Positions 6,569-25,860 of a stretch of 27,462 nucleotides of DNA are shown piece after piece. Each line of letters begins with the position of its first letter. Positions within the stretch are counted from its first letter, which is position 1. The notes beneath the pieces are model-generated. The model saw nothing but the letters and a program-made list of their open reading frames with translations. It ran no database searches and was not told the origin of the DNA. This DNA comes from a virus: the IMG/VR virus record IMGVR_UViG_3300049847_000305, positions 1 through 27,462 of that record; one strand, 5' to 3'. The translations under genes were made by a program, and so were the position numbers.

Positions 6569-7513
6569 TTATGCCTCGAGTTCCTCTTCGCGACCTTCAA
6601 GAATCGCTGCGAGTACCTCTTGGCGAGTTTTTGGAACAGTTTTCACCGGGGCGGGTGCCGAGGTGTTGGAGTTGGTCAACGTCCGGGTCGTCACTGTTCC
6701 GGCCTTAGGCTGCTCTGGTGCCTTAGGTGCAGTTGAAGCAGGAACCGTGCCAGGAGTCAAGACCCCTTGCCAGCGCGCAGCCTCTTTCTTCAGGTTTGCC
6801 TCGTAGAACTCCGCGGCCAGCTGGACCGACTCTTCGAAGGTCGAACCGGGGAGTTCTCCGTGTTTGGCGTGGTATTGGATGAGTACTTTTTCAACCCCAT
6901 CATAATCGCCAAGCTTGTTGATGAGATTGAACTTGGGGTTGTCCTTGAGCGCGGTCTGCATCTGGCTCATGACCTGAGTACGGGTCGACTGCATCTTCTC
7001 GGCCTCCCGCTCGGCCTTCAGAGCCTGCAATTCTTGACGCAGTGTGTCGAACTCAGGATTCCCGGTCTTTTCAGCGGGGGCAGATTTCTCTTCGGCGGGG
7101 GCGGCCTCACCCAGGAGCCGAGCGGTGTACTGGGAGTGCGTCATGCCCACGGCCGCAAGGAGGGCCACCGGGTCACCGGATTTGATGGCCTTAGCCACGG
7201 CCGAGGCTGTCGCTGGCGGGATGTCCCGGAGTACGTCGAGGTAGGGCTTGTTAGCCTCAGATTCTTTCCTAAGGGCGGCCCGTTCTTGCGCCAGCTTGAC
7301 TAGCGCTGGGACTTGCTCTTCTTGCGCATCGCCGACGGGAGCTTTCTTCTCCGTGATTGTAGTCTTCTCCGTGATTGGAGCTGCCTCAGCTTCAGGAGTC
7401 GGCACAATCCCTTCGTCCTGAAACGCCTTGGCCAGCTCGGCCGGGTCGATTCGGGAAGGAGGGATGAACGGGGTAGGAGCTACGGCGGTGGCGGGCTTGG
7501 CTTCGTCTGACAT
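6569..7513 (-). CDS. Scaffolding protein
   Basis: This 314-residue protein is acidic, rich in Ala, Glu, Pro and Lys, and mostly helical. It has a disordered N-terminal tract, a helical core with coiled-coil potential near residues 150-180 (FDTLRQELQALKAEREAEKMQ), a segment LNNPKF-like (DNPKFNLINKLGDYDGVEKVL), an Ala/Pro/Thr-rich linker, and a charged C-terminal helix (RQEVLAAILEGREEELEA) of the kind that binds capsid subunits. It sits between portal and capsid genes, the canonical scaffold position in podoviruses. It guides procapsid assembly and is absent from the mature virion. The ribosome binding site before the ATG at 7513 is weak (AAGAAA). Confidence 0.82.
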   Translation of the reverse strand: MSDEAKPATAVAPTPFIPPSRIDPAELAKAFQDEGIVPTPEAEAAPITEKTTITEKKAPVGDAQEEQVPALVKLAQERAALRKESEANKPYLDVLRDIPPATASAVAKAIKSGDPVALLAAVGMTHSQYTARLLGEAAPAEEKSAPAEKTGNPEFDTLRQELQALKAEREAEKMQSTRTQVMSQMQTALKDNPKFNLINKLGDYDGVEKVLIQYHAKHGELPGSTFEESVQLAAEFYEANLKKEAARWQGVLTPGTVPASTAPKAPEQPKAGTVTTRTLTNSNTSAPAPVKTVPKTRQEVLAAILEGREEELEA

Positions 7514-9504: not shown

Positions 9505-9747
9505 TCACTCCTGAGCGTCAATAGCTCGGCCGTAGGTTTCGAACTGTTCTCGGTAGGTAAGGCCGTCTTTTCCGACCTTAGCCTTCAGGGTTTCTTGTGG
9601 AATGTCAACATCGGGCACGCTAAATGCATCTGCAGGTTCCGAGCCTAGCACAATCTCGATGTCTCCGCACTTCAATGAAAGCACGCCTTTAGAGCGCATC
9701 CACTCAGTCAAACTCGTCAGCTCCGTAATCCTGGTCCCACCACTCAT
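9505..9747 (-). CDS. Small protein overlapping the end of terminase
   Basis: The ATG at 9747 is preceded by AGGAG with a 7-base spacer, an excellent ribosome binding site, so I use it although the frame is open further upstream inside the terminase gene. The 80-residue protein overlaps the last 44 bases of the large terminase gene in another frame and ends 2 bases before the portal ATG. It begins MSGGTRITELTSLTEWMRSKG and includes a short beta pair (VLSLKCGDIEIVLG) and a charged C-terminus. I do not recognise it. Its position between terminase and portal suggests a packaging or assembly accessory. Confidence 0.65.
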   Translation of the reverse strand: MSGGTRITELTSLTEWMRSKGVLSLKCGDIEIVLGSEPADAFSVPDVDIPQETLKAKVGKDGLTYREQFETYGRAIDAQE

Positions 9748-12139
9748 CTGGATTCTCCTGTCGTGAAAGTAGTTCTTCGTCCCGCGCTTCGATGACTTCT
9801 CCAATGGGAGGCTCTTCTTTGAACTCCGTGAAGTCAATGTAGTTGAGTGCTTTCCTCCAGGAGTACAATCCGGCGTCACAATTCGAAACCAGAATGCCGT
9901 TAGCGAAGTACTCAGGGCATCCCGCTACGGTCAACGCGTAGACGACAGCAGTTCCTTTGCTTGCTGTATTTACTGACTGTGAAGGGCTTTCCGCACTTGC
10001 CACAAACTCGTTCAATGTTGTCAATGCCAGAGAGTCTACGTTCTCGGGAGTGCCATCGCTGTGAACACTTCGTAGTGCAGAAGAGACGTTCCTCAGTCCC
10101 CTCGAAAGATACTCCGCACCCTTTGCACTCATGGGTACTGCGTGGCTTGTTAGCGGCGACACGAATACCGTGGGCACGGTGCCACTCGAGTCCTTCAGCT
10201 GAGGCGTGCCACTCAGGAGCTTTGAGTCTTGCTGCCTCGAGTCCTCGACGCATCCGCTCGGGGTGTAGCTGCCACTGTTTGCGCCCGTGCTCAGCGAGGT
10301 GCTCTCTTCCTGGCTTACACTCAAGATTCTCGATGGAGTTGTTGAAGGGGTTTTCGTCTCGGTGGTGGATATGATGACGCTTGGGAATGGGCCCGTGAAC
10401 GCTCTCGTAGATGACCCGGTGCAGCCACATTGGGCGCCCAGACACAGTTCGTTTATAGTACACCCGGTCCCCTCGTTTGGTTGACTCCGGGTATCGGTAC
10501 CACTTAAACCCACCCCATTCGACGATTCTGGCGTTTTCCATGCGTAAAACACTACGTCGGTGTCGAGAACTTCGTCAAGCCTCACCCAACCTCTGCCTGT
10601 AAGCACCGGGTGTTCGGGAGTTCCAGTGAGCCCGAACCGAGTGATGACCTCTGCCTCTGGAAGCTGAGCGTGTTTGATGACTGGGTTCCACCCGCTCCGG
10701 GTAAGGACCATGTCCCCTAGCCTGATGTCTTCGATGTTCGTCCAGCCTTTACTGGTGAGGACGAGGGTGCCGGCTACGAAGCACCGATGGTTAGGAAATC
10801 TAGGGTCTTCGCCTGGGGGCTTGCCAGAATCCGGGTCCCAGTTCGGGTCTTTGGGGAGGGAGCTGTATTCCTGGGCGAGCCCTCCCCCGCGCTGGACCTT
10901 GATGCGACCGGTAACGAAGTCGTCGTTCATGAGGCGCACGTGCTCAAGCTTCTCGGTCTTCTTGGCCGCCTCGAAGACCTGGCTGTAGCGAGACATGACG
11001 TCTTCGACGTACATCCTACCGCCACCGCCCGTGTCCGCTACCTTGGCGATGAAGTTCATCCCGAGCTTCTCCCACCGCTCAATGACTTCCATCACCTCTT
11101 CCGCGCGAGCGCCCGATTTAGACCATGAGCCCGCCTCGTAGAGTTCCCTGCGTTCGGGATGCCAGCCCCATGCAACGAGTGCCATGTCGTCCCGGAAGCC
11201 CAAGTCCCACCCAAGCACGTGCTGCCACCCCGGTCCCCATGGCTGAACTTCCGCAAGGGTAAAGGTGTTGCGCACCTCGTTGAACTTGTAGAAGAGGACC
11301 CCGTCGTCCTTGACCCACTGCCCCAGGTACTCGCGCACGTACGTGGGGTTGTCGATGGCCCACGAGCGCTTCTTTCGGATGTTGGCGAGTTCCACGGCCG
11401 CATGGGGGAGGTGGGGGTTGTCGAGAAGACTCCACCGATGGCAGGACCAGCCCGCCCCTATGCGTTCCTTCTCGTCTTCCCCTACCTCGTTCTTGGCCCC
11501 GGTCGAGACTTCCTGCCCTTCGCTCAGCCACTGCCCAGAGAGGGTAGGACCTCCAGTGATGCTATACCAGTAACCGGTAGGCACTGGCCCGGGGGTTCCT
11601 TCCATGCACATCGTACCCTGCATGTCGAAGAGGCACGGTTCCGCGACGTCTTCGACGAGCGACTTGAGAAACGGCCCGAAAAGCTGGCTTTCGAGGATGA
11701 CTTCAAGGATGGTCTTGTCGCCGCGCTTCCTCTGAGCCGACTGGTCCTTGTCCGCACCCACGAATCGAATCTCCGAGCCGTTCTGAAGCTTGATGGTGAG
11801 TTCGGTCTCGTGGGTGCTGATGGGTATTTTGTGCCTGGCTGCAACGAAGATGAACTCCTGCCACAGCATCTGCTTTACACGAAGTCGAGTGATGCCCCAG
11901 ATGCGGATGAGACTGTGGGGCTTCTTGAGCGCCTCCATGAAGCAGTAACGCGGCCACATCGACGTCTTACCGGCACGACGAGTGCAGATGGCCGCCTTGT
12001 TCCGGGAAGGGTCCTTGACGAAGCGAAGCTGCCTGTCGAAGAGTTCCCGCTCGATGCCCTCGCATACCGCGTCTGCCGACGCACGAGCCTTGGCCCGTCG
12101 TGCCATCTCTTCGGCGGCTTTGCGAGGGTCGAGCTTCAT
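9704..12139 (-). CDS. Terminase large subunit, intein-containing precursor
   Basis: This is the ATPase-nuclease that translocates and cuts DNA at the portal. The 811-residue precursor has an ATPase domain with a Walker A motif TRRAGKT at residues 53-59 and a probable Walker B around VILESQLF (146-153). An RNase H-like nuclease domain follows, with D312 in LGWDLGFRDD, D369 in AKVADTGGGG and D755 in CDAGLYSWR. Residues 453-753 are an intein inserted immediately before the last nuclease Asp, between FPNHR and CDAG. Excision would give a mature protein of 510 residues, normal for the family. The ATG at 12139 abuts the TAA of the upstream gene. Insertion at a conserved active-site position is typical for inteins, because imprecise loss is lethal to the enzyme. 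Confidence 0.9.
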   Translation of the reverse strand: MKLDPRKAAEEMARRAKARASADAVCEGIERELFDRQLRFVKDPSRNKAAICTRRAGKTSMWPRYCFMEALKKPHSLIRIWGITRLRVKQMLWQEFIFVAARHKIPISTHETELTIKLQNGSEIRFVGADKDQSAQRKRGDKTILEVILESQLFGPFLKSLVEDVAEPCLFDMQGTMCMEGTPGPVPTGYWYSITGGPTLSGQWLSEGQEVSTGAKNEVGEDEKERIGAGWSCHRWSLLDNPHLPHAAVELANIRKKRSWAIDNPTYVREYLGQWVKDDGVLFYKFNEVRNTFTLAEVQPWGPGWQHVLGWDLGFRDDMALVAWGWHPERRELYEAGSWSKSGARAEEVMEVIERWEKLGMNFIAKVADTGGGGRMYVEDVMSRYSQVFEAAKKTEKLEHVRLMNDDFVTGRIKVQRGGGLAQEYSSLPKDPNWDPDSGKPPGEDPRFPNHRCFVAGTLVLTSKGWTNIEDIRLGDMVLTRSGWNPVIKHAQLPEAEVITRFGLTGTPEHPVLTGRGWVRLDEVLDTDVVFYAWKTPESSNGVGLSGTDTRSQPNEGTGCTINELCLGAQCGCTGSSTRAFTGPFPSVIISTTETKTPSTTPSRILSVSQEESTSLSTGANSGSYTPSGCVEDSRQQDSKLLSGTPQLKDSSGTVPTVFVSPLTSHAVPMSAKGAEYLSRGLRNVSSALRSVHSDGTPENVDSLALTTLNEFVASAESPSQSVNTASKGTAVVYALTVAGCPEYFANGILVSNCDAGLYSWRKALNYIDFTEFKEEPPIGEVIEARDEELLSRQENPDEWWDQDYGADEFD
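9881..10783 (-). mobile_element. Intein in the terminase large subunit (301 residues)
   Basis: The intein starts at Cys453 of the precursor with block A (CFVAGTLVLTSKGWTNIEDI), has block B at TGTPEHPVLTGRGW with the conserved Thr and His, and ends with block F/G (VYALTVAGCPEYFANGILVSN) followed by the +1 extein residue Cys754. These are Hint-domain splicing blocks of the Cys/Cys class. The residue before the terminal Asn is Ser rather than the usual His, which is tolerated in some inteins but could slow splicing. Between blocks B and F the terminase frame encodes about 200 Ser/Thr-rich residues with no endonuclease motif; the endonuclease is instead in another frame of the same DNA (9912-10541). 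Confidence 0.88.
9912..10541 (-). CDS. HNH homing endonuclease nested out of frame inside the terminase intein
   Basis: The 209-residue protein is read one base back (-1) relative to the terminase frame and lies wholly inside the intein DNA. It begins MENARIVEWGGFKWYRYPES, like free-standing phage HNH proteins, and has the catalytic core with H41, IHH at 58-60, N68 and N72 (HHIHHRDENPFNNSIENLE). Two C-terminal zinc-ribbon-like units follow: C139/C142/C155/C159 and C180/C183/C198/C199. The last 13 codons overlap DNA that encodes intein block F. HNH enzymes of this type make the break that copies a mobile element into an empty allele. No good Shine-Dalgarno sequence precedes the ATG, so translation may be weak, coupled, or arise by frameshifting. 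The reading frame is clearly the selected one. Confidence 0.85.
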   Translation of the reverse strand: MENARIVEWGGFKWYRYPESTKRGDRVYYKRTVSGRPMWLHRVIYESVHGPIPKRHHIHHRDENPFNNSIENLECKPGREHLAEHGRKQWQLHPERMRRGLEAARLKAPEWHASAEGLEWHRAHGIRVAANKPRSTHECKGCGVSFEGTEERLFCTTKCSQRWHSRERRLSGIDNIERVCGKCGKPFTVSKYSKQRNCCRLRVDRSGMP

Positions 12140-12397: not shown

Positions 12398-12799
12398 TTA
12401 CCTTTCTACGAGGTACGGGTTGAAGGTGAGGTTGTTGTGGGTTGCAAAGAGCTGGCCCACCTTGTCGGTTCCGTGACTGTAGCAGGTGGCACGGTTTCTG
12501 ACTAGGCCGGTCCCGATTCCAAGTCTCCTGTACGGGACTTTGACGTACACGTAGTGGGCGCAGTTGGCCCTTGTGTCGATGCACGCCCACCCTAGAATCT
12601 CGTCGGGAGCTTCGGGGAAGTAGGCGATGAGCGTCATACTCTTGGAGAGTAACCTGTCGATTCTCCTGTCCTGTTCCGTGATGTACACGGGTCGGCTTAC
12701 TAACTTCTTGGCGAATAACTTCCAGTAAGACGTATGCCAAGAAGAGTGCACGAAGACGGCATCGTCACTGTTCATCGTCCTTAGTGTCGGAACTGACAT
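12398..12799 (-). CDS. GNAT-fold acetyltransferase-like protein
   Basis: The 133-residue protein has the layout of small phage-encoded GNAT proteins: an N-terminal strand and helix (PTLRTMNSDDAVFVHSSW), a strand ending LGWACID (69-75), a strand HYVYVKVPY, and the acetyl-CoA pyrophosphate-binding signature RRLGIGTG at residues 91-98 (R-x-x-G-x-G). The ATG at 12799 has GAGG 8 bases upstream and keeps the first strand; a second ATG at 12775 would remove it and has poor spacing. It overlaps the end of the upstream gene by 35 bases. Substrate is unknown. Such proteins occur in terminase neighbourhoods of other phages, but a role in packaging has not, to my knowledge, been shown. Confidence 0.72.
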   Translation of the reverse strand: MSVPTLRTMNSDDAVFVHSSWHTSYWKLFAKKLVSRPVYITEQDRRIDRLLSKSMTLIAYFPEAPDEILGWACIDTRANCAHYVYVKVPYRRLGIGTGLVRNRATCYSHGTDKVGQLFATHNNLTFNPYLVER

Positions 12800-13250
12800 T
12801 CAACAGGCCTCTTTCTTTCCTGATGCGTTCGAGGAAGGGTGCGGCGGCTGCCTCGATGTCTGCATCGCTCAGCGCTGTGTACTGGGCGAGGTCCTCCGCG
12901 TCCTGTTCTACCTTCATCATCTCGGTGGCTGCAACTGCCTTACCATGCATAAACTCGAATACGTCCTTTGCCGCGGTGCGTTGCGTTTCGATGGAGGGTA
13001 CAACCCAGTCGCTTTCGGTACCATCAGGAAGCTTGGTCTTCTGTGGGTGCCCATTAGCAATGTTGATGAGTACACGGAGCATGTCCATCCCATTGTCTGT
13101 GCAGTCCCGAGCCAGCTTACGCCAGTGAGTGAGGTTGGGCCTCATCATAGCGGGCATCGTGGCCCTCCCTACTACTCGGTTGTTCTCATCTCTCTTCACG
13201 AGCACGGGCCCTTGGGCGGTGATGACTGGGGCTTTCTTGAAGATGGACAT
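12765..13250 (-). CDS. Putative terminase small subunit
   Basis: This 161-residue, mostly helical protein is the first gene of the virion operon and lies upstream of the large terminase, the normal place of the small terminase that recognises the packaging site. It contains a basic N-terminal part (VKRDENNRVVGRATM), a central helical unit (LTHWRKLARDCTDNGMDMLRVLINIANG), and a segment TQRTAAKDVFEFMHGKAVAATEM that resembles the oligomerisation region of small terminases, where 'AAK...' is followed by a 'GKPV/GKAV' turn. The C-terminus is acidic. The ribosome binding site at 13250 is weak. The call rests on position and pattern; no definite helix-turn-helix is seen. Confidence 0.6.
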   Translation of the reverse strand: MSIFKKAPVITAQGPVLVKRDENNRVVGRATMPAMMRPNLTHWRKLARDCTDNGMDMLRVLINIANGHPQKTKLPDGTESDWVVPSIETQRTAAKDVFEFMHGKAVAATEMMKVEQDAEDLAQYTALSDADIEAAAAPFLERIRKERGLLNVSSDTKDDEQ

Positions 13251-13317
13251 GGCTCTGGACTATGCAACACCCGCGCCAAAAACGCAATTTGTCACTCTAT
13301 TGCAAGGGACGGGCCGC

Positions 13318-13337
13318 GATTTAAATTGATTTAAATC
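13318..13337. repeat. Double GATTTAAAT repeat, possible operator
   Basis: GATTTAAATTGATTTAAATC contains two copies of GATTTAAAT offset by 10 bp, one helical turn, and each copy is nearly palindromic. It lies in the leader of the virion operon between the promoter-like units and the first gene, where a regulator could block or modulate transcription. Confidence 0.5.
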
Positions 13338-13364
13338 ACCCAAATGCCCCGAGAAACAATCCGG

Positions 13365-13392
13365 GTAATAATGTTTCTAAGTGCCGGTCCAG
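13365..13392 (-). promoter_or_regulatory. Leftward promoter-like unit 1
   Basis: On the minus strand this reads CTGGAC, 9 bases, then GAAACATTATTAC. The last six bases (TATTAC) resemble a -10 element, and CTGGAC sits 16 bases upstream at the -35 place. It is the unit nearest the first virion gene; the start site would fall near 13358, giving a leader of about 108 bases. Units 2 and 3 and the site at 18565-18592 share the same 28-base layout. Confidence 0.55.
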
Positions 13393-13422
13393 GGGTTGCG
13401 CTAGCCTACGTCTCGTAACAAC

Positions 13423-13450
13423 GTAATAATGTTTCCAAAAACCGACCCAG
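13423..13450 (-). promoter_or_regulatory. Leftward promoter-like unit 2
   Basis: On the minus strand this reads CTGGGT, CGGTTTTTG, then GAAACATTATTAC. It is 58 bp (two times 29) from unit 1 and 29 bp from unit 3, and is nearly identical to unit 3. It could be an additional promoter or an activator site that includes the core motif. Confidence 0.55.
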
Positions 13451-13451
13451 A

Positions 13452-13479
13452 GTAATAATGTTTCCAAAAATCGACCTAG
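13452..13479 (-). promoter_or_regulatory. Leftward promoter-like unit 3
   Basis: On the minus strand this reads CTAGGT, CGATTTTTG, then GAAACATTATTAC. It differs from unit 2 at only a few positions, all outside the core. Exact conservation of the 13-base core in all three units, compared with drift in the flanks, indicates selection on the core. Confidence 0.55.
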
Positions 13480-13537
13480 AGTTTGTGCGGGCTCGCGCCA
13501 CCTTCACCTCCCCCACCGTCACCAGTCGACCCGGTTT

Positions 13538-13680
13538 TTGGCATGACCCTTGCTACTGCATGGCACGTGCCAAAAAAGCTGGCACCCCGCTTGCATGAGC
13601 ACATCTCATGCCAACCCTTGGCACATCACTTGCACTTACTTAGCACTATGCATGCCACTACTACGGCGGGGGTCTTGCAT
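13538..13680 (+). promoter_or_regulatory. Tandem array of four sigma-54-type (-24/-12) sites
   Basis: Four sites with the invariant GG-N10-GC spacing occur at GG positions 13540, 13581, 13620 and 13665. They read TTGGCATGACCCTTGCT, CTGGCACCCCGCTTGCAT, TTGGCACATCACTTGCA and a weaker CGGCGGGGGTCTTGCAT. The third fits the sigma-54 consensus (YTGGCAC-N5-TTGCW) almost perfectly. Spacing is 39-45 bp, and each unit is followed by a partly conserved CATGCC or GTGCCA. All would transcribe rightward. The same DNA can be described as a degenerate tandem repeat, so a binding-site array for another protein is an alternative. Confidence 0.5.
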
Positions 13681-13696
13681 TAGCAAGAGGAGTGCC

Positions 13697-13741
13697 ATGA
13701 CGCATCGAGTCATCGGCCCAGTTCTTGGTTTGACTACATAA
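13697..13741 (+). CDS. Very short SD-led reading frame, possible leader peptide
   Basis: An ATG at 13697 is preceded by AGAGGAG with a 4-base spacer and opens a 14-codon frame (MTHRVIGPVLGLTT) ending in TAA. It lies just after the fourth sigma-54-type site. The good ribosome binding site is the only support; no attenuator-like codon run is seen. It may be a leader peptide or chance. Confidence 0.25.
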   Translation: MTHRVIGPVLGLTT

Positions 13742-13756
13742 GTACACCTTTACCAC

Positions 13757-13774
13757 ATTTAATGCACATTAAAT
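13757..13774. repeat. Inverted repeat ATTTAATG-CA-CATTAAAT
   Basis: Two perfect 8-base arms are separated by 2 bases in an AT-rich stretch. Size and symmetry fit a dimeric regulator's operator. Confidence 0.55.
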
Positions 13775-13804
13775 ACATCGGATAATCAAACTATATTAGC
13801 CATA

Positions 13805-13827
13805 ATTGCGCACCGCGTTAACGCAAT
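13805..13827. repeat. Nested inverted repeat around GCGTTAACGC
   Basis: ATTGCG (13805-13810) and CGCAAT (13822-13827) form an inverted repeat, and a perfect 10-bp palindrome GCGTTAACGC lies at 13815-13824 partly inside it. It could be an operator or a small hairpin in the presumed origin. Confidence 0.45.
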
Positions 13828-13830
13828 CCT

Positions 13831-13846
13831 ACTGTAATATTACAGT
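13831..13846. repeat. Perfect 16-bp palindrome ACTGTAATATTACAGT
   Basis: The 16 bases equal their own reverse complement, and a half-site-like TTGTAATATCA recurs near 14243, just before the early genes. This is a strong candidate operator for a dimeric repressor, though no repressor gene is seen in the window. Confidence 0.6.
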
Positions 13847-14030
13847 CACAGCATATATTCAATTCTTTATTAGGGAAAAGATTCACTAATACAAGGAAAA
13901 ACGCGGATAATCGCAAGAAATGGGCCCAAAACGTGTCCAATAAATTCAGTAACTTGAATGTATGGTCACATATGGTTGTCAACGGTTGGCAACACATCGG
14001 CAACCGCGCAAAGGGGCGAAGCCTCTCATG

Positions 14031-14056
14031 TTGTTGCCAGTGTTGCCAGTGTAGAC
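14031..14056. repeat. Left arm of a 26-bp inverted repeat
   Basis: This arm matches the reverse complement of 14152-14177 at 25 of 26 positions; the single difference is G versus T in the inner repeat. The arms are 95 bases apart. Each arm carries two iteron copies, so the symmetry may reflect two mirrored binding platforms rather than an RNA hairpin. Confidence 0.7.
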
Positions 14057-14151
14057 AATTATTCTCTTCTCTTCTTCTAGAGTAGAAATAAGAGGGTGGG
14101 GGGGGCCGTACGCATCAGAAAGAGAGGGTGGGGTATGTGCGCGTTTTCGTC

Positions 14152-14177
14152 GTCTACACTGTCAACACTGGCAACAA
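14152..14177. repeat. Right arm of a 26-bp inverted repeat
   Basis: This is the partner of 14031-14056. It starts GTCTACACTGTCAACACTGG and continues into further direct CAACA copies toward 14240, so the right side of the cluster is longer than the left. Confidence 0.7.
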
Positions 14178-14308
14178 GTCAACAATTTCGCGTGTTTGCG
14201 TGTAGTCAACACGTGTTGCACCGTCTACAACAGTCAACACTATTGTAATATCAGGTGCTTGCAAAACCAGCTTGACCTAGCCTGTTTTGGGGATACTAGT
14301 AGGGTACC

Positions 14309-14701
14309 ATGATTACACAAGAGCAACAGCGCAGAGTGAAGTATGAGGCTTGGTTGTCCAACCTTAGGCAGAGCGTGACGAACGCTGAGAGGTCCCTAGT
14401 TGACGCTAGGAAGCGACTTGAGTCTGCACCTGCGTTCGCTTACGACCCTGACGTATTGACCTTCCTGCGAGGCCATATTGCCGTTTACCTCGCGCCACCT
14501 GACAGCCCTTTGCACCGCTCCCAGACAGTAGGGTACACATCTACTGGTCTGCGCAGCGTGTCAAAGAAGGTCCAGCGCGCAATGGTGAATGAGTTGAGGT
14601 CAGCCGGAATGTGGAAAGAGCTTGAGTGCGAGCTGAATGAGGCAGGTTACGAGCACTGCGTGAAAGTGCTGCAAGACATGCTTGGCTCTGTAAAGCCTTG
14701 A
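14309..14701 (+). CDS. First rightward early protein, function unknown
   Basis: The 130-residue protein starts at an ATG preceded by GTAGGG. It is largely helical with a basic N-terminal half (EQQRRVKYEAWLSNLRQSVTNAERSLVDARKRLES), then STGLRSVSKKVQRAMVNELRSAGMWKELECEL and a C-terminal helix. There is no catalytic motif. TTGACC at 14272-14277 is a possible -35, but no good -10 follows at standard spacing, so the promoter is uncertain. It directly follows the control region; first genes of early operons often take over host functions, but I see no motif to assign one. Confidence 0.7.
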   Translation: MITQEQQRRVKYEAWLSNLRQSVTNAERSLVDARKRLESAPAFAYDPDVLTFLRGHIAVYLAPPDSPLHRSQTVGYTSTGLRSVSKKVQRAMVNELRSAGMWKELECELNEAGYEHCVKVLQDMLGSVKP

Positions 14702-14758
14702 CAATGTAGGTCTACAGCTCTTTTACACGCACACCGACTAAGCGCCCGTAAATACAAT

Positions 14759-14771
14759 GACACAGTGTGTC
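14759..14771. repeat. Palindrome GACACA-G-TGTGTC
   Basis: Two perfect 6-base arms flank a single G in the 225-base gap between two early genes. The gap otherwise shows no clear promoter, so this is a possible operator for the small-gene run starting at 14927. Confidence 0.45.
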
Positions 14772-14926
14772 GGTCGATTCCTAAAAATACCGCTTCAACT
14801 GGAATTCTGATTTATTTCGGCATTTATTTCAGCGAATCCCTCAGCAGTTACGTGCGCTTAGGCCGTTCCGCCAACGAATAAAAGAGTTCGAAAAAGGTCA
14901 GCAGAAGGGCTATTAGTGAGAGGACA

Positions 14927-15190
14927 ATGACGGTCCCTCAGAAAGCCGAGCATCCCGTGCACATCACCGACCCCCGAATCCAAGAAGCGAAGCTGAAGTT
15001 GGATGTAGTACGCCAAGCACTCGCAGACGCCGTACTCCAGCTGCATAAGGTAGATGCCGACGAGTGCATGGGTTACATCGTACCCGACTATATCGTCGAG
15101 GAAATCAAAGCCCTTAGCCTCGCCGAAATTGAGGCTCGTAACGAATTCCGAAAGCTCGTCGGGAGTGTGTCGACGGGGGTGGAGTCATGA
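14927..15190 (+). CDS. Small helical early protein, unknown
   Basis: The ATG at 14927 follows GAGAGG. The 87-residue product is helical (RIQEAKLKLDVVRQALADAVLQLHKV, IVEEIKALSLAEIEARNEFRKLVG) with mixed charge and moderate coiled-coil potential. Its TGA overlaps the next ATG by an ATGA junction, so it heads a coupled run of five small genes. I do not recognise it. Confidence 0.65.
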   Translation: MTVPQKAEHPVHITDPRIQEAKLKLDVVRQALADAVLQLHKVDADECMGYIVPDYIVEEIKALSLAEIEARNEFRKLVGSVSTGVES

Positions 15191-15348
15191 TGCAATCGAA
15201 CGAGCACCAACTACTGTGTTTGCTGGCTATGTCGTTGTGGACATCGAACAAGAAAATCGAGGTCTTACCCACCATCAAAGTCTACCTGCCGTGCGAAGAA
15301 GTAAGCATCGTTTACACCACCACTGAAATGAGAGGGTCTACATTATGA
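15187..15348 (+). CDS. 53-residue protein linked by overlaps on both sides
   Basis: This gene has an ATG at 15187 overlapping the upstream TGA and a TGA overlapping the ATG at 15345, so both ends show ATGA-type coupling. The frame is short but uninterrupted. The protein (MMQSNEHQLLCLLAMSLWTS...) has a hydrophobic N-terminal stretch of about 12 residues, then KKIEVLPTIKVYLPCEEVSIVYTT, which is strand-prone. It may be a small membrane-associated or beta-hairpin protein. Gene status rests on the perfect fit between neighbours. Confidence 0.55.
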   Translation: MMQSNEHQLLCLLAMSLWTSNKKIEVLPTIKVYLPCEEVSIVYTTTEMRGSTL

Positions 15349-15755
15349 GCCGCACGAGCCGAACGGTTTACGACGCAGTGCATCAAGAGGCGTACAACAT
15401 GGTGCGAGACATTGTCGAGGGCATCAAAGCCGATGACAGCATCACCACCGAAGACGAGCTTTACGACGCGGTGCATCAAGCGTGCGATGATGCCCTAATC
15501 TACACCGTTGACCAGTACACCTGCCTGTGGGGTCTGCCTGACGCCGATGATGCAATCGAGGAGGGTATGGTGGAGCCTAAGACGGTGCAGGGAGTGGTCG
15601 CAGCACAAGCCTACCTGAACATCGCGCAAGCGGTTAACGAGCACCACGAGGAGTTTATGGACATCATCGCCCAACGCGCCGACCGTGAAAACGATGCGCG
15701 TATTGACGCGGTCATTGCCGATGGTGGACCTAACGACGCGGTGCGCGATGAGTGA
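15345..15755 (+). CDS. Acidic early protein with repeated YDAVHQ motif
   Basis: The 136-residue product is strongly acidic (many Asp and Glu) and helical. YDAVHQEAYNM near residue 9 and YDAVHQACDDA near residue 40 are an internal duplication. The remainder (AIEEGMVEPKTVQGVVAAQAYLNIAQAVNEHHEEF) is helical. Small acidic early phage proteins are often inhibitors or DNA mimics of host enzymes, but that is only a possibility here. GAGAGGG lies upstream of the ATG, which overlaps the previous stop. Confidence 0.65.
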   Translation: MSRTSRTVYDAVHQEAYNMVRDIVEGIKADDSITTEDELYDAVHQACDDALIYTVDQYTCLWGLPDADDAIEEGMVEPKTVQGVVAAQAYLNIAQAVNEHHEEFMDIIAQRADRENDARIDAVIADGGPNDAVRDE

Positions 15756-15963
15756 AGACATGGAGTGGATTGCGAAACGATGGCCCGATTACCCGTGGAC
15801 CCTGGAGGCGCTTGCCCGGGAGGTCGAGTTGATTGAAGAGCACGAAGAATACCAGAGGGAGCTTGCGAGGGTGTGCCCGACCGACGAGCCACCGCAGTTC
15901 AATTCCCCCGCCGAGTTTAGGGCGTTTAAAAAAGTCTTTGTGAAAGTGGAGGGCCACTCGTGA
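15748..15963 (+). CDS. Small acidic protein, unknown
   Basis: I choose the ATG at 15748, which overlaps the end of the previous gene by 8 bases; the frame is open further upstream but only inside that gene. The 71-residue protein (MSEDMEWIAKRWPDYPWTLEALAREVELIEEHEEYQRELAR) is acidic and helical at the N-terminus with a basic C-terminal end (AFKKVFVKVEGHS). No family is recognised. It is the fourth gene in the coupled run. Confidence 0.6.
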   Translation: MSEDMEWIAKRWPDYPWTLEALAREVELIEEHEEYQRELARVCPTDEPPQFNSPAEFRAFKKVFVKVEGHS

Positions 15964-16184
15964 GCTTGTACTACTTGACATCGATGGACGATAACGTCAC
16001 ACGAACGGTGCAGCTCAGGGACCTGGTCAAAACCCTGCTTAAGTGTGAGGCTCGACTGACGACACCATCACCAAACTACACCGCGCGTTTCGTTCCTCGC
16101 GACCCACGACTCGGTCCCATTATCGTCTCATGGGCTACGCCCGATGCACAGCGTAGATTCTTAGCGGTTTTCTTCCCCCTTTAG
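15960..16184 (+). CDS. Small basic protein ending the first early run
   Basis: A GTG start at 15960 overlaps the upstream TGA (GTGA). The 74-residue protein (MSLYYLTSMDDNVTRTVQLRDLVKTLLKCEARLTT, ...RFVPRDPRLGPIIVSWATPDAQRRFLAVFFPL) has a helical first half and a strand-prone second half. It ends 9 bases before a strong terminator hairpin, marking the end of this transcription unit. The function is unknown. Confidence 0.6.
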   Translation: MSLYYLTSMDDNVTRTVQLRDLVKTLLKCEARLTTPSPNYTARFVPRDPRLGPIIVSWATPDAQRRFLAVFFPL

Positions 16185-16192
16185 CTCCCAAG

Positions 16193-16224
16193 ACGACCTT
16201 GGCCCCTTGTGGGGCTTTTGTCGT
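16193..16224 (+). terminator. Rho-independent terminator between early run and primase-helicase
   Basis: GGCCCC (16201-16206) pairs with GGGGCT (16211-16216) around a TTGT loop and is followed by TTTT. An outer ACGAC/GTCGT pair (16193-16197 with 16220-16224) can extend the stem. It lies directly after the stop at 16184, so the primase-helicase needs read-through or its own promoter. Confidence 0.75.
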
Positions 16225-16286
16225 TGACGACACTACCCCTAGTGGCTTGCGTACCTAACCTAACCCGTGGCACCTTGTACGACCCT

Positions 16287-18581
16287 ATGACGACATCAGC
16301 CGTCGAGTACGCAATCACCTATTACGCCCCCAACCCGACCGGTAGACCTACGGCGCAAGCCAGTAGGGGTGATACTCTTACCGTCCCCCTCGCCGAGCTT
16401 ATCGACTCCGTCACCGACTATGTCGACAGCGACCGTAAGGACCTCGCACCCGCTTGGTCCCCCATTACCTACACCGACGGTATACGTAAGTCGCATGGCG
16501 CCTTAGCGGTGTGTGCGCTTGTGTACGACCTTGACCACAGCGACCCAAACGACACCACCACAGGTCCACCCACAAATACCCAGTTGGAGGCACTTAGTGC
16601 GCGCTTGGAGCACCTCGGGTGGGTGTACGCTATCCACGAGACCTACACCGCAGGTCGCTGGCGTCTTGTGGTTCCGCTCGCCTCACCCGTGCACCCTAAG
16701 GAGTACCCAGCTGCCCGCGTGTGGGGGTTAGAGCAACTAGGTAACCCGCCGGCCGACCCAGCCACTGGCGACCTCGCACGGCTCTTTTATGCACCCTCCA
16801 GGCCAACGGGCACCGAGCGCCGCTCGACATCGGGTGGCACGATTCTGGCAGATTTCAAGAGTCATGCCACCCACCTTGACCCACATGTAGGCGCTTCACC
16901 CCACTCCACCCACCCCGAGGGAAGTAATTTTTCCCCAGAGGATTCGCCCTCAAAATTTTTGGGCCCCGGGGGAAGTAATTTTTCTGCAGAACCTTTCGAC
17001 CTAGAAATTTTGGCCACCGAGGTTTCCAAGTCCCTCAGCCCGCACCGCGACGCCATGAAATCCCTCATTGACGGGACTTTACGCGTCCCCCCCGGCAGCC
17101 GGGAAAACGTCATGCACCCCCTCATGTGCGCGATGGCCCAGCTCCGAGCAGCACCCTCCGAAAAAGTAATGGAGACGATGGTACGTCGCGTGCTCGAAGT
17201 GCGTGAAGGTGCAGAAGAACACCTTGAGGAGTGGGTCTCTAAAGCGCTCGACTCCTACAAGCGAGGCGCAGATTACGCGGGAAGTAAATCGGCTGCAGCT
17301 TCTTTGGCCCAGAAATTTTTTGAGGACAAAGCCAGGGAGCCCGGGAACGAGTGGATGACCCTACTCGAGCGCACGGGCAAGGACGGAGGTGGCCCCGTCA
17401 AGGCCAACGAGATGAACGTCATCACCATTCTACGCAATGATGAGGCCTTCCGAGGATTCCTTCGATGGAATGTTCTGAAGCAGCGAGCGGAAATCATCGG
17501 GGGTGTACTCAACACCATACCCGAGAGCGCACGAGACGACCTCGGGGTACACCTTGCGGCATGGTTCCAGGGCAGCGTGCACAAGTGCGCGGTAAGTCGT
17601 GACATGGCGGGGGCATGCATGCAGTCCATTGCCCTGGAGAACCCTTACGACCCGGTGCGCGAGTACCTTGACGGCCTGCCCAAGTGGGATGGGGTGGCGC
17701 GCCTGGGGAACCTCCTGAAGGACTACGCTGGCGCCCTAGGTAACCAGAACTGGATTCGAACCGTATCCACCAAGTTCTTCATCTCGGCCATAGCTCGCGC
17801 CATGGAACCAGGGTGCCAGGTCGACACGGTACTCGTCCTCATGGGAAAGCAGGGAGGCGGGAAGACGTCCCTGGTGCGCGTTATGGGTGCCGGGTTCCAC
17901 GTAGAGACCAGCCTTGACCTTCACAACAAGGACGCGGTCATGACGGCAGCGGGGAACTGGCTCGTAGAGCTTGGAGAACTGGCGTCATTGCGCAAGTCGG
18001 ACATCGAGTCCAGCCGCAACTTCATCACCCGGAAGGAAGACCAGATTAGACTGCCATATGGAAGGTCTATCCGTACTATACCTAGACGGTGCGTCTTCAT
18101 CGGCACTACTAATAGTACCACACCGTTGCAGGACCCGGACGGGAGCCGACGGTACTGGGTGGTGGCGGTAGGGAGGGTAGATACGGCCGGCCTTGAGAAG
18201 GTTCGAGGGCAGATGTGGGCCGAGGCTCTGCACTACTACAAGCAGGGGGTGTCCTGGTGGCTGGATGATGCTGAGACCGAAATCGCCGAGAACGAGGCCA
18301 GGGCGTTCGAAGCCGAGGACCCTGTTCGTCAAACCATCATTGCGTGGCTCTCCACCAACAGAAAGCGGCCAGAGTACATAAGCACGCACGACATCGCTAC
18401 GAGCTGGCTCGGGTGGCAGTCATACCAGATTAATACAGCCACACTGAGCAACATCGGGCGCGAGCTGAACAAGCTAGGCTGGCCCAGGAAGAAGAAACGC
18501 TCCGAGGGTACCGTCATAACCGTGTACGCGGTCCCCAGGTGGCAAGAAAATGAGGAAGCATCCCTTGACACAGATGCCTGA
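16287..18581 (+). CDS. Primase-helicase of the VapE/D5 type
   Basis: This fused replication protein probably primes and unwinds phage DNA. I use the ATG at 16287; an earlier in-frame GTG at 16209 lies within the terminator hairpin. The N-terminal domain has the primase-like acidic pair YDLDH (D81, D83) and, later, the pattern LGWVYAIHETYTAGRWRLVVPL and DLARLFYAPSRPTG of D5/RepB-associated primases. After a linker of about residues 195-245 comes a superfamily 3-like, VirE/VapE-type ATPase with Walker A GKQGGGKT at 520-527, then NWLVELGELASLRKSDIE, TTN near residue 603 and GSRRYW at 619-624 (arginine-finger region). It has 764 residues. No Shine-Dalgarno sequence is evident before the chosen start, so the exact N-terminus is uncertain. 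Confidence 0.82.
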   Translation: MTTSAVEYAITYYAPNPTGRPTAQASRGDTLTVPLAELIDSVTDYVDSDRKDLAPAWSPITYTDGIRKSHGALAVCALVYDLDHSDPNDTTTGPPTNTQLEALSARLEHLGWVYAIHETYTAGRWRLVVPLASPVHPKEYPAARVWGLEQLGNPPADPATGDLARLFYAPSRPTGTERRSTSGGTILADFKSHATHLDPHVGASPHSTHPEGSNFSPEDSPSKFLGPGGSNFSAEPFDLEILATEVSKSLSPHRDAMKSLIDGTLRVPPGSRENVMHPLMCAMAQLRAAPSEKVMETMVRRVLEVREGAEEHLEEWVSKALDSYKRGADYAGSKSAAASLAQKFFEDKAREPGNEWMTLLERTGKDGGGPVKANEMNVITILRNDEAFRGFLRWNVLKQRAEIIGGVLNTIPESARDDLGVHLAAWFQGSVHKCAVSRDMAGACMQSIALENPYDPVREYLDGLPKWDGVARLGNLLKDYAGALGNQNWIRTVSTKFFISAIARAMEPGCQVDTVLVLMGKQGGGKTSLVRVMGAGFHVETSLDLHNKDAVMTAAGNWLVELGELASLRKSDIESSRNFITRKEDQIRLPYGRSIRTIPRRCVFIGTTNSTTPLQDPDGSRRYWVVAVGRVDTAGLEKVRGQMWAEALHYYKQGVSWWLDDAETEIAENEARAFEAEDPVRQTIIAWLSTNRKRPEYISTHDIATSWLGWQSYQINTATLSNIGRELNKLGWPRKKKRSEGTVITVYAVPRWQENEEASLDTDA
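16920..16984 (+). repeat. Direct repeat in the primase-helicase linker
   Basis: GGAAGTAATTTTTC occurs at 16920-16933 and again at 16971-16984, 51 bases apart in the same frame, each encoding the core of GSNFS. It lies in the linker between the primase and ATPase domains and probably arose by duplication. Confidence 0.6.
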
Positions 18582-18592
18582 AACATTATTAT
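18565..18592 (+). promoter_or_regulatory. Promoter for the lipoprotein-sigma operon
   Basis: TTGACA (perfect -35) at 18565-18570, a 16-base spacer and TATTAT at 18587-18592 form a strong sigma-70-like promoter inside the end of the primase-helicase gene. The spacer and -10 contain GAAACATTATTA, the core found three times upstream of the virion operon, at the same offset from the -35 place. The expected start site, about 7 bases after the -10, coincides with the ATG of the next gene at 18599. Confidence 0.7.
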
Positions 18593-18598
18593 TCGAAT

Positions 18599-19072
18599 AT
18601 GAGACTAGCTCTTCTTCTCCTGCCCCTGTTTTTCAGCTGTGTCACTAACGTAGAGCGCACAGAATGCGGTATGGCGGTGGGAGGTGACGACCAGAACGGA
18701 AGCGACACCTGGTTAACGCTTGCGGACCTCCAGGCAGCCGAGACAAAGCTCTTGGACGCCATCGACCTCGTAGCGTTCGACCCCAAGCTCAAAAGCCGAG
18801 CCAACAACTGCGCAGCGCTCAACGGTTGGGTCGTCAACGTGCACTCGAGCAATCGATGGCGCTACCCCGGAATCGACTACGAGGTGTCGGGGCTGACGTG
18901 GTGCCTGATGAAGACTTCCACCATCGATACGCCTCAGAACGAAGTCAGCTGGCAGCGTTCGAGTCTGGCGCACGAGCTGGTACACGCAGCACAGCGATGC
19001 GAAGACCGAGAGCACATCAACTGGGCGAAGTACCAACTCTTCCAGGCCATCGATATGGCGGTCAGCCGATGA
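18599..19072 (+). CDS. Predicted lipoprotein with HExxH metallopeptidase motif
   Basis: The 157-residue protein starts with a short signal sequence (MRLALLLLPLFFSC): a basic residue, a Leu-rich core, and a lipobox-like FFSC that would make Cys14 the lipidated residue. Near the C-terminus lies HELVH (H125, E126, H129) preceded by SSLA, the zinc-binding helix of many metallopeptidases; H139 or E138 is a possible third ligand. Four further cysteines (23, 71, 102, 134) could form disulfides outside the cytoplasm. The protein would sit on a membrane facing the periplasm, so roles in superinfection exclusion, envelope remodelling or lysis are conceivable. No ribosome binding site precedes the ATG, fitting a leaderless mRNA. 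Its stop overlaps the sigma gene. Confidence 0.72.
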   Translation: MRLALLLLPLFFSCVTNVERTECGMAVGGDDQNGSDTWLTLADLQAAETKLLDAIDLVAFDPKLKSRANNCAALNGWVVNVHSSNRWRYPGIDYEVSGLTWCLMKTSTIDTPQNEVSWQRSSLAHELVHAAQRCEDREHINWAKYQLFQAIDMAVSR

Positions 19073-19614
19073 ATCTCCAAAAAAGGCTCAGAATATGTCG
19101 ACATCTGGTGAAATCTCTTATTAGGAGATTTCCCCGCTTCAAACAGTACCGAGAGGACTTAGTCCAAGAAGCTTTTCTAGGCATGCTAAGAGCCGATGTG
19201 CTTGGCTATGACGCCTCTAGGTCATCACACTCTACTTACCTTGGTATGTGGGGCAGGGCTTACGCCTTTAACTACCTGCGACATAGGCTTAAGAAGCACG
19301 CTGCCGAGCTATCCATAAAAGTGGATGATGAGGCCGACACAGATAATATACTGGAAGTAATTCCTACACAGGAACAGTCACCCGAGGAAATTTACAGCTA
19401 TAACGAGCAAGCTCAACTTTTTAAAGCAACTCTTAAAGCCAGGGCTCGAAAAGCTTTCAGTAACCCCGAAGCGCGTAAGAAGGCCTTAGCCATCGCTATT
19501 GCACGGCTCAGCGGTAGAACGCTTGCGGACATCGCCAAAGAGTTCGGAGTATCACGTCAACGCATCGAGCAGTTCAACTCAAAAATGGGTCTTTCAGTGG
19601 GGGTACAATTATGA
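19069..19614 (+). CDS. Phage-encoded sigma-70-family factor
   Basis: The ATG at 19069 overlaps the lipoprotein's TGA (ATGA). The 181-residue protein has a region 2-like segment at about residues 26-75 (YREDLVQEAFLGMLRA, then SSHSTYLGMWGRAYAFNYLRHRLK) matching the 'DLxQEaflgllrA...fxtYlxxxirxxixxylR' pattern. A region 4 helix-turn-helix follows at about 150-172 (RTLADIAKEFGVSRQRIEQFNSKM). Between them is an acidic linker. It would redirect host RNA polymerase to phage promoters; the shared motif at 18565-18592 and 13365-13479 is a candidate target. Base use is more AT-rich than in the neighbouring nuclease genes. It is smaller than housekeeping factors and similar in size to alternative factors. 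Confidence 0.85.
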   Translation: MNLQKRLRICRHLVKSLIRRFPRFKQYREDLVQEAFLGMLRADVLGYDASRSSHSTYLGMWGRAYAFNYLRHRLKKHAAELSIKVDDEADTDNILEVIPTQEQSPEEIYSYNEQAQLFKATLKARARKAFSNPEARKKALAIAIARLSGRTLADIAKEFGVSRQRIEQFNSKMGLSVGVQL

Positions 19615-20078
19615 ACCAGTGCGACAGGTGTTATCAGACGATGGGCTCGGGGGCGCTGTGCTATGATTGTGAAGTAGAGATTGAGACGGAGGAGAACCAC
19701 AGGAAAGAAATCGCCAAGGCCCGCGAAGAGCAGCGCGAGGCGTGCATGGACGCGGTGTATGACGCCGACAGTAATTACGGCTGTGATTGTTGGTATGCTG
19801 TCAAGAACGCGTCCCTCGACGCCACGCCCCTGGCCGACCGGATTCGAGAGCTGGAGGCGCAACACCTTCGCGACCAGGACGAACTGGGCAAACTCGACGC
19901 TGAATTGCTTGTCATGCACGCGCGGCACAAAGCCGAACTGCGCCGAGTCGCGGAGGCTGTGTTGGAATTGTGCGACAAAACGCTACGCGAGGACACTGAC
20001 TATTCCTGCATGAACCCGTTCCCCTTCCCCTGCCTGCGTACACTGAACCTCGACGCGATTCTTGGAGGTGGCGAGTGA
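19611..20078 (+). CDS. Zinc-ribbon and coiled-coil protein, unknown
   Basis: The ATG overlaps the sigma stop (ATGA) and has GGGGG upstream. The 155-residue protein has an N-terminal CDRCYQTMGSGALCYDC with two C-x2-C knuckles, a likely zinc ribbon, then a charged helix (EENHRKEIAKAREEQREACM), a CDCWY cluster, and a long coiled coil (IRELEAQHLRDQDELGKLDAELLVMHARHKAELRRVAEAVLEL). Co-expression with the sigma factor hints at a transcription-related or scaffold role, but this is inference only. Confidence 0.65.
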   Translation: MNQCDRCYQTMGSGALCYDCEVEIETEENHRKEIAKAREEQREACMDAVYDADSNYGCDCWYAVKNASLDATPLADRIRELEAQHLRDQDELGKLDAELLVMHARHKAELRRVAEAVLELCDKTLREDTDYSCMNPFPFPCLRTLNLDAILGGGE

Positions 20079-20281
20079 GCATATTTCTAGGTCTGGTAGC
20101 AGCTACCTTGGCAGTAGTCATGCCGTTCTGGATTTACGCCACCGTACAGGACACCAAGAGAGTCGAGCTAATAGAGCAGGCCCAGAGAGACGAGCTTCGT
20201 CAATTCGCCCACGAACTGGTTCGCCAGCTCAACGCCATTCCGGCTCGGCTTGACGCGCTGGAAAAGCGAGGTGGCGAGTGA
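20075..20281 (+). CDS. Small single-pass membrane protein with coiled coil
   Basis: The GTG start overlaps the upstream TGA and follows GGAGGTGGCGA, a strong ribosome binding site. The 68-residue protein has one transmembrane helix at about residues 2-22 (SIFLGLVAATLAVVMPFWIYA) and a charged helical remainder (VELIEQAQRDELRQFAHELVRQLNAIPARLDALEKRG). This build resembles i-spanins and small phage membrane anchors, but no o-spanin or endolysin gene is adjacent, so lysis function is unproven. Confidence 0.6.
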   Translation: MSIFLGLVAATLAVVMPFWIYATVQDTKRVELIEQAQRDELRQFAHELVRQLNAIPARLDALEKRGGE

Positions 20282-25781: not shown

Positions 25782-25786
25782 GAAAT

Positions 25787-25858
25787 TGCGGGGTAGCTTA
25801 GAGGCAAAGCAGCGGACTCATAATCCGAAGACCGCAGGTTCGAATCCTGCCCCCGCTA
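25787..25858 (+). tRNA. tRNA with CAU anticodon (Met elongator or Ile2)
   Basis: The cloverleaf folds with acceptor pairs GCGGGG/CCCCGC, a D stem GCTT/AAGC, an anticodon stem CGGA/TCCG around loop CTCATAA (anticodon CAT, 25818-25820 area), and a T stem GCAGG/CCTGC with loop TTCGAAT. Position 1-72 is a T:T mismatch. No CCA is encoded. The lack of three GC pairs in the anticodon stem and the C-G pair at 11-24 argue against an initiator. CAU can mean elongator Met, or Ile if the C is modified to lysidine. Confidence 0.85.
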
Positions 25859-25860
25859 TT

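Follow-up and report, generated by a model that had tools for sequence, protein, structure and literature searches.

Late transcription driven by a phage-encoded sigma factor is known from podoviruses: the late promoters of phage 7-11, of the form GTAAtg-(16)-aCTA, are read by its own sigma factor SaPh711_gp47, and phiEco32 gp36 is a podovirus sigma factor driving late promoters (PMC8948821). The locus studied here resembles these systems in that a podovirus-type phage carries a sigma-70 family gene and a word common to late operons and, as in 7-11, a bipartite element with a 16-nt spacing (PMC8948821). A sigma-70 factor is indeed encoded, and the motif indeed lies upstream of late operons. 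Unlike in 7-11 and phiEco32, however, homologous units are found here in relatives without a detectable sigma gene, the tandem copies lie in phase with a G-rich box, and the role of the sigma factor is putative. Lambda-like cos sites (lambda, 21, N15), in which the spacing between cosN and cosB is precise (PMC4669245), form a further point of comparison.

The window, i.e., the whole stretch of DNA that was analysed, is an entire linear IMG/VR record of 27,462 bases (27.5 kb) and probably a fragment, part of the genome being missing from the record. Its leftward genes encode an intein-containing terminase together with portal, capsid and tail-type proteins, and its rightward genes a VapE-type primase-helicase, an exonuclease, an endonuclease VII, a helicase and a cut-off DNA polymerase. 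The features under discussion are as follows.

12765 to 13250, minus strand: first gene of the virion operon, an open reading frame whose homologues also come first in the virion operon of relatives
13365 to 13392, minus strand: unit 3, CTGGAC-16-TATTAC, with a more diverged left half and an exact 13-base core
13423 to 13450, minus strand: unit 2, CTGGGT-16-TATTAC, in direct repeat with unit 1 and offset from it by 29 nt
13452 to 13479, minus strand: unit 1, the copy phased to the box, CTAGGT-16-TATTAC, with GAAACAT ahead of the right hexamer
13508 to 13529, minus strand: G-rich box TCGACTGGTGACGGTGGGGGAG, located by pattern scan and ungapped alignment and conserved upstream of the units in relatives
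18565 to 18592, plus strand: unit 4, TTGACA-16-TATTAT, with an exact 13-base core and T at the last base
18599 to 19072, plus strand: lipoprotein-like gene, an open reading frame with an HELVH (HExxH) motif read by eye
19069 to 19614, plus strand: sigma-70 family factor of 181 aa with regions 2 and 4, recognised with three profile libraries

The first virion gene, for which Pfam gave no match and PHROG none of significance, is a probable terminase small subunit by position only, without a family match. The sigma factor that the earlier note had assigned to the second operon was confirmed, since the product of 19069-19614 scored 53.8 bits against a TIGR02937 cut-off of 42.9 and 31.9 bits against a Pfam Sigma70_r2 cut-off of 24. 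At the sensitivity used, searches of phage records, IMG/VR and GTDB genomes gave no homologue of it. The AlphaFold models of this protein and of the product of the divergent gene at 14309-14701 had low confidence, and no claim is based on them. The lipoprotein-sigma cassette was found only in this phage; the lipoprotein-like gene itself had no Pfam or PHROG match, and the HELVH motif of its product suggests a secreted zinc peptidase.

The core GAAACATTATTAC occurs exactly at 13365-13377, 13423-13435 and 13452-13464, always on the minus strand, and GAAACATTATTAT occurs exactly at 18580-18592 on the plus strand; the three leftward copies before the virion operon and the single rightward one thus lie precisely where the earlier note had put them. 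Its statement that the window holds no other copy also stood, as a search of the whole 27,462-base record with GAAACATTATTAY, allowing up to two mismatches, returned nothing beyond these four. Four core matches were reached in none of 100 dinucleotide shuffles of the window. In a look-elsewhere test, GAAACATTATTA was the sole 12-mer counted four times in the window, the maximum for 12-mers across 100 dinucleotide shuffles being three. A cis-element common to the two operons is well supported, with four exact cores where none would be expected.

In all four units the hexamer (CTAGGT, CTGGGT, CTGGAC or TTGACA) sits exactly 16 bases before the last six bases of the core, as had been claimed. The accompanying description of a 28-bp unit common to both operons holds for the virion copies, which form a true direct repeat family of 28-29 nt, but not for the fourth, which has only the right 13-14 bases and the spacing in common with them, its left part being TTGACA. 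In the same way, the label of -35-like hexamers suits TTGACA, the only one identical to the consensus, but not CTAGGT (1/6 positions), CTGGGT (2/6) or CTGGAC (2/6), and a sigma70 scan of 12700-20200 picked up none of units 1-3, which have no consensus -35/-10 pair at 16-18 nt. Unit 4 was the best sigma70-like site of this 7.5-kb interval, with 11/12 positions and a 16-nt spacing when scored against the sigma70 consensus; the remaining sites reached up to 9/12. Since the total number of sites was at the level of shuffles, only the rank and the score of unit 4 are informative. Unlike host sigma70 promoters, which unit 4 resembles, the virion units have neither a TTGACA-like hexamer nor the final T of the -10, and GAAAC is conserved in their spacer. 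In unit 4, the -10 stops six bases short of the ATG of the lipoprotein gene at 18599, and a transcript starting from it would therefore be leaderless or nearly so. Unit 4 is probably the promoter of the lipoprotein-sigma operon, judging from its sequence and position.

Portal, capsid, first-virion-gene, TerL and helicase queries yielded 34 related records, all from uncultured phages. Among cultured phages, portal, TerL and helicase searches gave no close relative; the helicase match in MW202816, annotated as a myovirus, was not taken as one. The closer relatives carry tandem, lineage-specific units upstream of the first virion gene: CTAGGTCAATTTCCAGAAACGCTATTAT in G003, CTGGCTCGATTTCTGAATACTCTATTAC and a near-copy in G002, CCGGCTCAATTTCCCTAAACTCTATCGC and GATATTCGATTTAGAGAAACTYTATTGT in G015 and G016, and CCGGTACTTAATCCTATAACTCTATTGC with a weaker second unit in G013. 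The repeats of the distant relatives G012, G018 and G020 are without the TATTRY end. A matrix built from the relatives only ranked unit 1 first in the window (13479, minus strand, 21.9 bits) and unit 2 second (13450, minus strand, 20.1 bits), with unit 4 at rank 4 (18565, plus strand, 9.8 bits) and unit 3 at rank 5 (13392, minus strand, 8.3 bits). The match at rank 3, at 25835, was discarded as it lies inside a tRNA-Met gene (CAT anticodon, 25786-25859, plus strand), which overlaps a predicted open reading frame; a match at 41222 of G026, within open frames, was discarded as well. In leave-one-out tests, the top two ranks went to the held-out units in the window, G003, G002 and G015; in G013 these units took ranks 2 and 5. 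A motif scan of IMG/VR gave 12 matches, with a homologous site only in G003, and we take all the others as chance. At locus L007, upstream of the G003 box, GAAACATAATGAATA occurs twice, at 397-411 and 439-453, 42 nt apart, and resembles the window core.

The box, TCGACT followed by a run of G, was the best or, in the window, tied-best match (0-3 mismatches) to a pattern written after the sequences had been seen, in the records that cover this region. G025 is the exception, its box being assigned by position with five mismatches; between this position and the virion operon (L080, 2736-2942), about ten TGTATATACA palindromes replace the units, and this array adjoins a ribbon-helix-helix-like gene. 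In seven records, including the window, the first unit begins exactly 50 nt after the start of the box. Without any gap, the left hexamer lies at +50 and the right one at +72 in the window, G003, G002, G015, G016 and G013; CTAGGT occupies +50 in G012, which is without TATTRY, and TATTCG occupies +72 in G023. The stretch between box and unit is variable in sequence and constant in length, and later units follow one another at variable distances (29 to 60 nt). A precisely phased module, composed of the G-rich box, 50 nt and tandem units, thus precedes the structural genes of an uncultured phage group.

Copies were also found at other operons. In G015, the tandem pair AAAACTCTATTGC at 6941 and AAACGCTATAGT at 6999 precedes a different, divergently transcribed operon. 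In G013, AAACTCTATCAT at 2521, just upstream of the VapE gene, is possibly at a promoter position and, taken alone, only suggestive. The chance rate of such matches in all these records together, estimated by hand from base composition, is well below one.

From these sequences, their spacing, their homologous positions and the relatives' records, in which no sigma gene was detectable, we infer promoter activity, co-regulation and the kind of recogniser. The likelihoods given to the different readings are judgements, not computations. The one that we favour, with slightly less than even confidence, is that the unit belongs to a promoter class of the phage group, captured by the lipoprotein-sigma cassette and read by something other, originally, than this sigma factor. 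In this reading, the unit would control transcription in an uncultured podovirus-like group, most likely as a promoter. Upstream of the virion operon it stands in two or three tandem copies, the first being phased to the G-rich box, which may act as an activator or anchoring site. In the cassette, the right-half word would form the -10 region of a strong promoter, TTGACA-16-TATTAT, with a leaderless start, so that the cassette would be co-regulated with the virion genes. The recogniser would be ancestral to the group and may be the RNA polymerase of the host, assisted by a factor from either host or phage. This promoter reading draws on the hexamer geometry, the recurrence of the word where other operons would have their promoters, and the leaderless fit of unit 4. 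Several points speak against it: the virion units are poor sigma70 promoters, with TATTAC lacking the final T and left hexamers that are not TTGACA-like; in 9 of 12 records (the exceptions being the window, G003 and G020), the real promoter could instead be a TTGAC word that stands apart from the units, between them and the first virion gene; the TATTRY end is lost in distant relatives; the layout of a box plus repeats also fits a packaging site; and no regulator was identified for the units.

The simple model of the earlier note, in which the sigma factor recognises the unit, was not supported by the comparison with relatives, and we consider it unlikely, while placing it first among the alternatives. 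The phage sigma would guide the host core RNA polymerase to the GAAACATTATTAY units of both the virion genes and its own operon, in positive feedback, a loop that the host sigma could initiate through the TTGACA of unit 4. In line with this, the sigma operon carries the only copy outside the virion block, the protein has both region 2 and region 4, the strict 13-base core exceeds what a host -10 needs, and 7-11 and phiEco32 gp36 offer precedents (PMC8948821). However, Sigma70_r2 was found in the window and in none of the 32 relative records searched, and in 22 records the TIGR02937 cut-off was passed only in the window; the relatives also yielded no homologue of the sigma factor. The records searched included G013 (44 kb) and G020, G025 and G026 (40-46 kb), which we judge to be near complete; some other records are fragments. 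In G026, an open reading frame at locus L091 (35653-36111, minus strand), located after the DNA polymerase gene, encodes sigma region 4 only (TLEEIGSVLSLTRERIRQI), below the TIGR02937 cut-off, and has a CPFVSC motif. The G015 record has no sigma-70 region 2 gene, yet it has units before a second operon, and the VapE-exonuclease interval of G013 holds neither a lipoprotein nor a sigma gene. Motif and sigma gene thus do not go together across the relatives; since units stand in records where no sigma-70 region 2 gene was detectable, the unit either is older than this sigma factor or can do without it, and the repeats were probably not built for it. The sigma gene seems to have come under an element that already existed, and not to have given rise to it. 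Were this confirmed, it would caution against concluding, from a phage sigma gene and a common motif, that one reads the other.

Ranked next, and also rather improbable, is a packaging site, in which the G-rich box would be the terminase cut site (cosN-like) and the units the binding repeats of the small terminase (cosB-like), in the order known from lambda: cosN, R sites, small terminase gene. As in lambda-like cos sites (PMC4669245), a conserved box is followed, at a precise distance of about 50 bp, by repeats that diverge by lineage, with the small terminase gene, here recognised by position, downstream; the spacing of +50 was exactly fixed in seven records. In every relative seen, the site immediately precedes the first virion gene, and R3 of N15 is located at bp 48-59 from the cos end, like that of lambda (PMC4669245). 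By contrast with cos sites, the same word stands at promoter positions elsewhere (18565 in the window; 6941 and 6999 in G015), all repeats are direct, where R2 of lambda is inverted, and no known genome end falls at the box, the records examined running through it. The end sequences of HK97 and PBL1c are also without such a box. The promoter class was preferred over the cos reading because of the copies at other promoters, the uniformly direct repeats and the absence of a record end at the box. A combination of both, in which one recognition code would serve a packaging-type site before the terminase genes as well as promoters, the repeat having been copied to the newly acquired sigma operon, seems very improbable; if true, such a copy in the sigma operon promoter would couple late transcription to packaging.

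The right half could also be an operator for a repressor or activator of the phage, perhaps the one encoded divergently at 14309-14701; this site would overlap the -10 of unit 4 and stand in tandem before the virion operon. Unit 4 indeed has only the right half in common with the other units, without the left hexamer, G003 has a near-dyad in TTTCCAGAAA, and the window, G013, G015 and G016 have small-protein genes that diverge across the intergenic region in a similar layout. We nevertheless regard this as doubtful, as the proteins of these divergent genes are only 18-22% identical to that of the window, whose low-confidence predicted structure had no structural match, some copies lack the dyad, and the hexamers would have come to stand at their 16-nt spacing by coincidence. 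Promoters of a T7-type RNA polymerase were considered in view of AAACGCTATAGTGAGG in G015, and no polymerase was found: a search for the single-subunit enzyme gave no PF00940 match, the control being equally silent, and no candidate among the open reading frames listed, which covered about 12-33 kb of G013.

Further observations concern other features of the window. A 26-nt inverted repeat (14031-14056 and 14152-14177; 96% complementary, arms 95 nt apart) lies in the long intergenic region and may be an origin or an operator. Within the terminase gene (9704-12139, minus strand), which matches Hint_2 from residue 453 on, an HNH endonuclease open reading frame (PF13392, 8.5e-15; 9912-10541, minus strand) occupies another frame of the intein part, so that endonuclease and intein seem to overlap in different frames.
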